A stretch of 64,000 nt of DNA from Herbaspirillum seropedicae (GTDB lineage Bacteria; Pseudomonadota; Gammaproteobacteria; Burkholderiales; Burkholderiaceae_D): NCBI RefSeq assembly GCF_001040945.1, contig NZ_CP011930.1, forward strand, positions 4,149,021 through 4,213,020, read 5' to 3'. Under the pieces are notes generated by a model. That model ran no database searches. It saw only the letters and a program-made list of their open reading frames with translations, and was not told the origin of the DNA. A program made the position numbers and the translations under genes. Below, in pieces: positions 5,040 to 63,723 of the stretch (its first letter is position 1; each line of letters starts with the position of its first letter).

Positions 5040-5247
5040 GGAGATCCCTTTCGTTGTGGATTTGTTTTGATGAATGGACGTGGAGACGAAACGGGGGCTA
5101 GTGTATTGAGCGGACGCACAAATAACAATTGCTGCCGCCCGCCGCCGCAAAAAAAAATCCGTAAAACAATTCGGCCCCGCCGCCTGCTGCCGCTGCACGG
5201 TGCAAAAAACATCGGCAAACCCGGCCCCTGCCCCAAAACGGAACAGG

Positions 5248-61112: not shown

Positions 61113-61439
61113 TCAGAACGGCATCTTGAAGCCCGGCGGCAGCGGCATGCCGGCGGTCACGCCCGACATCTTTTCCTGGGCGGTGGCTTCGGCCTTGCGC
61201 ACGGCGTCGTTGAAGGCGGCGGCGACCAGGTCTTCCAGCATGTCCTTGTCGTCAGCCAGCAGCGACGGGTCGATGGAGACGCGCTTCACGTCGTTCTTGC
61301 AGGTCATCACCACCTTCACAAGGCCGGCGCCGGACTGGCCCTCGACCTCGATGCTGGCCAGTTGCTCCTGGGCCTTCTTCATGTTGTCCTGCATGGCCTG
61401 TGCTTGCTTCATCAGACCTGCCAGTTGACCTTTCATCAT
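61113..61439 (-). CDS. ybaB: YbaB/EbfC nucleoid-associated protein
   Basis: A 108-residue dimeric DNA-binding protein: [28 protein letters not shown] and [31 protein letters not shown] with [12 protein letters not shown] at the end, as in YbaB. The ATG at 61439 has AAGGAG at good spacing; an ATG at 61445 is too close. It belongs to the dnaX operon, 60 bases after dnaX. Confidence 0.95.
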
Positions 61440-61499
61440 GCTCATGCTCCTTGTTTCAATTCACGGGATTCTATCGCGTTTGGCCCGCAGGCCGGCGAC

Positions 61500-63629
61500 T
61501 CAACGGGGCTGGATCGATCCTGGCACGATGGAAGCGCCGAATTCGCGCATCATGGTCACCACGAAAGGATCGTTCTTCATCTTGTGCTCGGCCTGGCGCT
61601 GGCGTTCTGCGCGCTCGGCCTCGGCGACCGCATTGGCGGTGTCGGCGACGGCGCCGATCTCGGTCTCGACGCGGATTTCCTTGCCGAAGCGTTCACTCAA
61701 GGCTGCCGTCAGCTTTTCGACACTGCCGGAAGAGCGCAGGGTTTCCAGCGGGATGCGCAGGTGGAAGCAGACGTTGCCGCCATTGAGCGGCTCGCAGCGC
61801 ACCAGTTCACTCTGGAAAGCCATCTGGTGCGCCACGCCGCGCAGGGAGGCGAGGCTGGCGGCCAGGGTCGGCCAGTGGCCGTCCCAGCCCAGTTCGGCGG
61901 CGATGCGGGCGGTTTCCTGCTGCTGCGCGGGGGTGGCGGCCGGGCGCTGCGGCGCGGGTGCGGCGGGCGGCGCTACGGCGGCGGGCTCAGTTTTTTTTTC
62001 AGCGACCTCGGCCATCGGGATGGGCGGCGGCATGGACGAGGCGGCACCGGTCTCTTCTTCCCATGGCGGAATCGCATCGAAAGGCGGCGGCTCGGGCATG
62101 TCCGGCGGCATCGACGCAGCGGCGCGTTCGGCCCTGGCGGCGGGTGCAGGCGGTGCGGACGGGGCCGGGGCTGCAGCCGGTGCAGGCGCGGGCGTGGCGG
62201 CTGCGGGAGCCGCTGGCCGCGCGGGGGCCTTGCCCCCCTTGCCGCCACGCAAGGCCATCAGGGCGGCTTCACGGGCAGAAGTGGGTGCGGCCGGCGCGGC
62301 TGCCTGGACGGGCGCCGACGGGGCGGCAGCGGGAGCGGATGCGGCAGGGACCGCAGCCGCAGGAGCGGCCGGCGCTGGCGCGGTGGCGGCTTGGGTACGG
62401 CTGACCGGGGCGCTGGTCACGGCCACTTGCGGGGCCATCAGCGGCGCGGCCTGACGCGGTGCGGTCGGTCGGCCACCTGCGGCAGCCGGTGCAGACGAGG
62501 CGGCCGGTATGGGCGCAGTGGCGCTGGCGCTGACCGGACGGAAGGCCAGCATGCGCAACAGCGTCATGCTGAAACCGGCGTATTCATCCGGGGCCAGGCC
62601 CAGCTCGTTGCGGCCATGCACGGCGATCTGGTAGAACAGTTGCACATGTTCCGGGCTGAACTGGCCGGACAGGCGCAGGATATCTTCGCGATTGGGCAGG
62701 TCGTCGGCCAGCGCGGCCGGCACGGCCTGGGCCAGGGCGATCTGGTGCAGCAGCGTGCCCAGGTCTTGCAGGGCGGCGTTATAGGACAGGCTGCGGGTGG
62801 CCATGTCGTCGGCCACGCCCAGGAGGGCTGCGCCATCCTGCACCGCCAGCGCATCGAGGATGCGGATCAGGTAGGACTGGTCGAGCGCGCCCAGCATGCC
62901 CTGCACGGCTTCCAGCGTGACCTTGCCGGCGGCATAGGCGATGGCCTGGTCGGTCAGCGAGAGCGCATCGCGCATGGAACCGGAAGCGCCCTGCGCCAAC
63001 AGGCGCAGGGCCGGCGCATCGAACTCGATGCCTTCCTGGTTCAGGATGTTGTCGAGATGGCCGATGATGTGGCCGGGCGGCATCTGCTTCAGATTGAACT
63101 GCAGGCAGCGCGAGAGCACCGTCACGGGAATCTTTTGCGGGTCGGTCGTGGCCAGGATGAACTTGATGTGCTCGGGCGGCTCTTCCAGCGTCTTCAGCAT
63201 GGCGTTGAAGGCGTGGTTGGTGAGCATGTGCACTTCGTCGATCATGTAGACCTTGAAGCGGGCGTTGGAGGGCGCATAGATGGCCTGCTCCAGCAGTTGC
63301 GCCATCTCGTCCACGCCGCGGTTGGAGGCCGCGTCCATCTCGATGTAATCGACGAAACGCCCGGCGTCGATGGCCACACAGGCTTCGCACACGCCACAGG
63401 GGGCGGCAGTGATGCCGCCCGCGCCATCGGGACCGACGCAGTTGAGCGACTTGGCCAGGATGCGCGAGAGCGTGGTCTTGCCCACGCCGCGGGTACCGGT
63501 GAAGAGATAGGCGTGGTGCAGCCGCTGCTGTTCCAGCGCGTGCGTCAGCGCGCGCACGACGTGCTCCTGGCCTACCAGGGTGTCGAAGCTGCGGGGACGA
63601 TATTTACGGGCAAGAACTTGATAGGACAT
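61500..63629 (-). CDS. dnaX: DNA polymerase III tau subunit (gamma/tau)
   Basis: A 709-residue clamp-loader and polymerase-organising subunit. AAA+ motifs: Walker A GTRGVGKTT, zinc-type cysteines in APCGVCEAC, Walker B VYMIDEVHML, SRC in VTVLSRCLQF. Domain III ends near residue 370. A long Ala/Pro-rich domain IV spans ~370-560, and domain V (tau-specific, alpha-binding) occupies the C-terminus. An A9 run at codons 543-546 may cause slippage to a gamma-like 546-residue product. It is the first gene of the dnaX-ybaB-yciI-recR operon within the window. Confidence 0.96.
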   Translation of the reverse strand: MSYQVLARKYRPRSFDTLVGQEHVVRALTHALEQQRLHHAYLFTGTRGVGKTTLSRILAKSLNCVGPDGAGGITAAPCGVCEACVAIDAGRFVDYIEMDAASNRGVDEMAQLLEQAIYAPSNARFKVYMIDEVHMLTNHAFNAMLKTLEEPPEHIKFILATTDPQKIPVTVLSRCLQFNLKQMPPGHIIGHLDNILNQEGIEFDAPALRLLAQGASGSMRDALSLTDQAIAYAAGKVTLEAVQGMLGALDQSYLIRILDALAVQDGAALLGVADDMATRSLSYNAALQDLGTLLHQIALAQAVPAALADDLPNREDILRLSGQFSPEHVQLFYQIAVHGRNELGLAPDEYAGFSMTLLRMLAFRPVSASATAPIPAASSAPAAAGGRPTAPRQAAPLMAPQVAVTSAPVSRTQAATAPAPAAPAAAVPAASAPAAAPSAPVQAAAPAAPTSAREAALMALRGGKGGKAPARPAAPAAATPAPAPAAAPAPSAPPAPAARAERAAASMPPDMPEPPPFDAIPPWEEETGAASSMPPPIPMAEVAEKKTEPAAVAPPAAPAPQRPAATPAQQQETARIAAELGWDGHWPTLAASLASLRGVAHQMAFQSELVRCEPLNGGNVCFHLRIPLETLRSSGSVEKLTAALSERFGKEIRVETEIGAVADTANAVAEAERAERQRQAEHKMKNDPFVVTMMREFGASIVPGSIQPR
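61991..61999 (-). promoter_or_regulatory. A9 slippery run in dnaX
   Basis: On the coding strand: GCT GAA AAA AAA ACT GAG. Nine A residues lie between domains IV and V. A -1 shift, or one extra A in the mRNA, reads AAC then TGA at once. A +1 shift, or one missing A, reads CTG AGC CCG CCG CCG then TAG. A GAGG Shine-Dalgarno-like word lies 6 bases upstream. This is the position and design of dnaX slippage sites in E. coli and Thermus. Confidence 0.7.
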
Positions 63630-63723
63630 GAGGTGGCTGCTGTCGGCTTTTTGGCTCAGGGGGGCATTTTAAGCTATTTCGCCGCCCGTATCGCCTTTGC
63701 CTTGCCGCCATCGCCTGCATCGT

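Follow-up and report, generated by a model that had tools for sequence, protein, structure and literature searches.

A recurrent A9 run in the dnaX genes of Herbaspirillum and its relatives as a probable slippage site

The dnaX locus and its A9 run

The window, a stretch of 64,000 nucleotides of Herbaspirillum seropedicae DNA (contig NZ_CP011930.1), carries on its minus strand the gene dnaX (61500..63629), which encodes the tau subunit of DNA polymerase III (709 aa) and is predicted to give gamma as well. The assignment comes from the open reading frame, NCBIfam equivalogs, and Pfam. Two Pfam domains on the same strand are relevant here: domain III (PF12169, aa 237-362, 62544..62921), which is retained in the predicted gamma, and the tau domain V (PF12170, aa 584-705, 61515..61880), which is missing from it and which Pfam names as interacting with alpha. 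Tau is one open reading frame with domain V in frame, and needs no change of frame. Inside this single frame, between the two domains, lies a run of nine A on the coding strand (A9, 61991..61999, minus strand), which ends 37 residues N-terminal of the start of domain V. The original prediction gave these coordinates exactly; the codons it assigned to the run, 543-546, are corrected here to codon 544 (position 2) through codon 547 (position 1).

The run is flanked on the coding strand by G upstream and C downstream. It contains the heptamer A_AAA_AAA in phase, and the E. coli-type A_AAA_AAG is absent. As predicted, both shifted frames meet a stop soon after the run. In the -1 frame, entered through one extra A or a -1 ribosomal shift, the codon AAC is followed by TGA (61987..61989, minus strand), for a predicted product of 547 aa ending in KKN. 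In the +1 frame, entered through the loss of one A or the gain of two, the five codons CTG AGC CCG CCG CCG precede TAG (61973..61975, minus strand), for a predicted product of 551 aa ending in KKLSPPP. The alignment of relatives places the run in a conserved island (61986..62005, minus strand) with the family consensus CGGCTC-A9-CTGAA, which reads TCGCTG-A9-CTGAG in the window. A GAGG word (62006..62009, minus strand) lies 6 nt upstream of A9; judged by counts of Shine-Dalgarno-like words it is not conserved and is probably outside the signal.

The window contains two A9 runs (four overlapping A8 matches), against a mean of 0.14 in dinucleotide shuffles. In the 5.51-Mb genome, both strands included, 29 A9 matches correspond to 28 distinct runs, because one A10 is matched twice; A9 by itself is therefore not unique in the genome. 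The second run of the window, at 5149-5157, apparently precedes a minus-strand permease-like gene, lying before its likely start, as judged by eye from the list of open reading frames.

Conservation of the run among relatives

We compared dnaX across a named set and three evenly drawn samples. The named set consists of the 80 best among 589 confirmed matches to the dnaX query and is not an even sample. The evenly drawn genomes of the family, order, and class gave a dnaX match in 92 of 97, 108 of 110, and 87 of 94 cases, respectively, and 204 dnaX genes were read from these draws. The family and named genes amount to 145 distinct sequences, from which we dropped eight with a frame of at most 500 codons (contig ends), leaving 137 complete genes. 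The order count refers to 87 complete genes from the 110-genome draw, a few of the 110 being counted as family, and the class count to 29 loci of the 94 class genomes, 25 of them complete.

A9 followed by [CG]TGA is present in 52 of the 137 complete family and named genes, always in the same phase. Runs of at least nine A in the linker were expected in 0.18 genes under a synonymous null and in 0.10 under a codon-order null, against the 52 seen. T9 was found in the linker of none of the 137 family and named genes and none of the 87 order genes. Judged by this comparison of sequences, the A9 site is real and selected, not the product of chance. The evenly drawn family sample has A9 in 32 of 82 complete dnaX genes, and its 42 genus codes divide into 16 that are all positive, 23 all negative, and 3 mixed. 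One family member, G417, has A9 GTGA in dnaX. The motif CTCAAAAAAAAACTGA has four matches in 399 order genomes, three of them in dnaX (G141, G050, G095). The remaining match, found in G362, is on a different contig from that genome's dnaX.

Conservation in the 52 A9 genes is limited to about 20 nt (GGCTC-A9-CTGA). Outside this island most positions carry less than 0.7 bits, and many about 0.2. Because A9 followed by [CG]TGA was the criterion for choosing the genes, those letters are invariant by construction; the choice does not set the GCT codon, the +1 stops, or the counts against the null. Among the 56 runs with an in-phase A_AAA_AAA, the length is nine in 52, eight in three, and seven in one. 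In all 52 genes the run is followed by 128 or more further codons of open tau frame. The expectation that an alignment would show the run and both stops conserved amid varying codons held for A9 and the -1 stop, which are fixed while neighbouring codons are free, and in part for the +1 stop, which stays near while its place and codon shift; it failed for the closest relatives, which have no run.

The peptide at the site is mostly A-[QE]-K-K-T-E in the 52 genes, and AEKKTE in the window. The Ala ahead of the element is encoded by GCT in 45 of 46 cases (background 11%), a preference independent of how the genes were chosen. AAA encodes Lys in 104 of 104 cases (background 42%), ACT encodes Thr in 51 of 51 (background 10%), and CAA encodes Gln in 40 of 40 (background 36%), all three being partly fixed by the choice of genes. 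Selection for a lysine-rich peptide was rejected on the evidence of the A9-less genes, none of whose 85 complete linkers has [QE]KK[TS] after codon 340, whatever the Lys codons. At the upstream edge of the element (62000-62005, coding strand), NCT precedes the Gln/Glu codon in 50 of 52 genes, a preference explained by neither stop placement nor run length; the upstream flank possibly affects slippage.

The closest relatives of the window, G178, G449, L017, and L002, are without A9, G449 being a near-twin of L002. Identity to the window's dnaX is 98% for G178 and 99% for G449 in the first 370 residues, and 99% for L017. At the A9 site G178 reads GAA GAA AGA AGA GAC ACC, and has lost the Lys-Lys peptide too. 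The original prediction named mixed AAG/AAA lysine codons without a conserved run as evidence against a selected site. None of the 85 complete A9-less genes encodes [QE]KK[TS] with such mixed codons; the objection holds in part, in that the run is missing from the nearest relatives within Herbaspirillum, though their Lys-Lys peptide is lost as well. The nearest decayed forms are A8CCTGA in L020 and interrupted runs in L013, L049, and G178, and the complete dnaX genes read from Massilia, Duganella, Janthinobacterium, and Undibacterium contain no A9. On a quick tree with many open forks, the presence or absence of A9 changes state at least 15 times, a count that does not distinguish gain from loss. 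Since the closest relatives and whole clades are without the run, gamma made by the A9 route is, on this gene evidence, dispensable. We also searched the A9-less family genes for a replacement of A9 by an E. coli-like A_AAA_AAG or another in-phase heptamer with a -1 stop within six codons. Such heptamers are scattered and none is widely common; AAATTTT recurs in G239/L070 and G476/L073, and GGGGGGC in G476/L073.

Shifted-frame stops and the mechanism

A ribosomal -1 shift needs the -1 stop alone, whereas transcriptional slippage yields both shifted frames. The 52 A9 genes reach their +1 stop a median of 5.5 codons after the run, and 42 of them within 13 codons, compared with medians of 28.7 elsewhere in the same genes and 29.5 after synonymous shuffling; none of 20,000 position draws had a median as low as 5.5. 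With the next 60 codons put in random order, the median was 20.6, the lowest of 500 draws being 11.5. With one gene per cluster at 97, 93, and 90% identity (40, 27, and 14 genes), the median is 5.0, and 0, 0, and 1 of 20,000 draws were as low. In distance and codon taken together, the +1 stops of the 52 genes are of 29 different kinds. Two A9 genes of the family are exceptions, with +1 stops 49 and 90 codons away. The sequence of E. coli K-12 dnaX has a +1 stop 11 codons past its slippery site. As that site is ribosomal, a near +1 stop in one gene is not diagnostic, and the argument rests on the excess over the whole set. Off-frame stops of this kind could also be a mere clean-up of errors.

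We consider it probable that A9 is a selected transcriptional slippage site of the Thermus type, making the predicted gamma from dnaX. RNA polymerase would slip on A9 and produce a pool of dnaX mRNAs, some with nine A (or 9+3n) and some with other numbers. The former would be translated into tau (709 aa). One extra A would bring the TGA into frame one codon past the run and give gamma (547 aa), and one A lost or two gained would lead to the TAG after five codons and a product of 551 aa. The short product would lose the alpha-binding domain V but retain the ATPase core together with domain III and most of the linker. The site, its conservation where present, both stops, and the closeness of the +1 stop are direct observations, from which we infer that slippage occurs, that it occurs in transcription, and that gamma is used; the comparison of relatives lends support to the earlier reading of the run as a probable slippage site. 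If insertion prevails, as in E. coli, the -1 frame would give the main product, which fits the -1 stop being the tightest. In published reporters (PMC6260861), slippage by the E. coli RNA polymerase is undetected below eight A, which speaks for the transcriptional reading; it is weak on poly(A) and without deletion there, which speaks against it. The far +1 stops also count against this reading, both those of the two family genes (49 and 90 codons) and those of genus g56 in lineage f50 (78 and 110).

We favour slippage by RNA polymerase, with a possible ribosomal contribution, because the +1 stops are close, the run is of nine rather than seven, and there is little Shine-Dalgarno signal and, by a weak test, little structure signal. 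Shine-Dalgarno-like words precede the run in 6 of the 52 A9 genes, the window included, against a control mean of 2.6 (p 0.036). The GAGG word proposed earlier as a ribosomal stimulator is present where it was said to be, and its role is weakened by this small number of genes. Folding of the downstream 50 nt has a z of -0.25 against -0.16 in controls, in a weak test by which E. coli dnaX itself reaches z -0.54, and the stretch is less stable than other linker stretches (-12.8 vs -17.2 kcal/mol). The window's own downstream z is -0.77, by the measure that gives the E. coli positive control only -0.54. The 52 A9 genes have no structure excess on either side of the run by this weak folding test, and conserved RNA structure or a Shine-Dalgarno word as stimulators are to that extent unsupported.

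A ribosomal share could take the form of a joint origin, in which A9 gives mixed mRNAs, ribosomes slide on the Lys AAA codons, and gamma comes from both. The two signals lie within the same run, and ribosome sliding on poly(A) is published (excerpt of PMC4363877); we regard this as possible, though not likely. A -1 ribosomal frameshift on A_AAA_AAA as the sole source, stopping at the TGA one codon on, would make the same 547-aa gamma. The heptamer is in phase within the run, and PMC4066793 includes it among the motifs that shift at above 0.10% in E. coli even with no stimulator. Of the two stops the -1 stop is the tighter, its TGA is spaced as in E. coli K-12 (A_AAA_AAG AG TGA), itself with a +1 stop at 11 codons, and the GAGG word lies 6 nt upstream, with the slight excess of such words over controls. 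We nevertheless hold this explanation to be unlikely. It leaves unexplained the close +1 stops over the set and a run of nine where seven would do for the heptamer; 46 of the 52 A9 genes have no Shine-Dalgarno-like word, and the downstream folding, in its weak test, is near that of controls and weaker than that of the linker.

It is highly improbable that the run is accidental, or that its function concerns the DNA or the peptide (as a mutational product, a lysine-rich linker, an intragenic promoter, an antisense terminator, or a phase-variation tract) with no gamma made: the run is missing from many lineages, the genome has 28 such runs, and clean-up of errors could account for the off-frame stops, but 52 genes were seen against 0.18 expected, the peptide is not retained without the run, and the tau frame is open for at least 128 codons past it in 52 of 52 genes. 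Phase variation was rejected on the strength of this open frame and because, among the other genes of the set, none has an A-run of at least seven at the end of a broken frame. An antisense terminator or intragenic promoter was rejected for want of conserved structure on either side of the run and of any further box, no candidate bases of a -10 box being conserved outside the 20-nt island. A known RNA family was likewise set aside, as 61400-63700 contains no Rfam match at the gathering score.

Known dnaX systems and other lineages

The dnaX gene of Thermus thermophilus uses transcriptional slippage at A9, with gamma as the short product (as described in excerpts of PMC1088944 and PMC5009743). 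According to that description, the two genes share a sense-strand A9 late in a single tau frame, nearby stops in both shifted frames, and gamma as the short form. They differ in lineage, the genes here belonging to relatives of Herbaspirillum, and in that slippage is predicted here and reported in Thermus. The GGCTC/CTGA flank is conserved among the A9 genes here, and the Thermus site is known by description rather than by sequence alignment.

The dnaX gene of E. coli is a proven case of a -1 ribosomal frameshift, with a downstream stem-loop according to the literature. Its K-12 sequence reads GCA AAA AAG AGT GAA at the site, with a Shine-Dalgarno-like AGGGAG upstream. As in the window, a TGA in the -1 frame lies one codon past the slippery Lys codons, and the peptides are similar, AKKSE there and AEKKTE here. 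Where E. coli has A_AAA_AAG, AGGGAG, and the stem-loop, the genes here have A9, no conserved Shine-Dalgarno-like word, and, by the weak folding test, no structure excess. In addition, the +1 stops are closer than expected over the whole set here, whereas E. coli has its own at 11 codons. A third arrangement is the two-ORF dnaX with a poly-A run, in which tau is made through the shift; transcriptional realignment was proposed for it, and 9 of 12 poly-A genes have A10 (Antonov et al. 2013, PMC3711429, in the excerpt used here). The poly-A run within dnaX is common to both, but the shift makes tau in that case, whereas in the genes studied here tau is read in frame and the shift would be needed for gamma. 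The literature searched contained no report of dnaX slippage in Herbaspirillum, and an earlier mention is possible.

The role of gamma is still argued. A family with a sharp element in 32 of 82 evenly drawn species, missing in very close relatives, provides a natural experiment on this role. A 2012 review, in the part used here, states that most bacteria besides enterobacteria and Thermus are without a dnaX frameshift signature and may make no gamma (PMC3290774). Slippage yielding a shorter protein was set aside as a class hard to judge comparatively (PMC1088944, excerpt); selected stops in both frames suggest a search route for slippage of this kind.

At the order level, runs of at least nine A occur in 14 of 87 complete dnaX genes against about 0.35 expected. 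The class level shows no clear excess, as only 1 of 25 complete genes has such a run against 0.25 expected under the synonymous null. The order-level carriers include both genes read in each of the lineages f12, f36, f42, f47, f49, and f50, one gene of f4 (two others being without), and one AT-rich gene of f44 (the other being without). These runs lie at codons 365-450, in all three phases. Without the AT-rich gene, the remaining 13 have a median distance of 8 codons to whichever stop is farther, versus 45. Lineage f50 has A9 in 7 of 7 complete dnaX genes, one of its two genera using TGA and the second TAA as the -1 stop, so it is the stop that is preserved rather than its letters; its genus g56 is the one with distant +1 stops. 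We also observed A9 or A10 after domain III, with the farther stop at 3 to 13 codons, in L303 and L302 (f47), L279 and L280 (f49), L297 and L305 (f12), L314 and L315 (f42), and L268 and L270 (f36). Over lineages f1, f12, f36, f42, f47, f49, and f50, the sites differ in position and phase, and mostly have both stops near. We tentatively suggest that a two-product dnaX may be a fast-turning trait in the order, and that A9 and the E. coli site might share an AKK[ST]E signal as their ancestor, one signal that switched between RNA polymerase and ribosome.

Broken dnaX frames were observed in a few genomes. In L185 (G502, class level), the frame closes after 453 aa, and sequence resembling domain V lies in another frame, in a single genome where an assembly error is possible. 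In genera g94 and g25 of lineage f19 (L344, L345, L350, L351; genomes G149, G594, G066, G019), the frame stops at 441-463 aa after [AP]PW in 4 of 4 genomes. A PF12170 match follows in the +1 frame after the end of dnaX (E 1e-8 to 3e-6), above the curated cut-off in two of the four. The junction has a GGGGAGA word nearby and no run of A. A +1 shift would be required for tau in these genera, unlike the -1 shift of the two-ORF dnaX as excerpted from PMC3711429.
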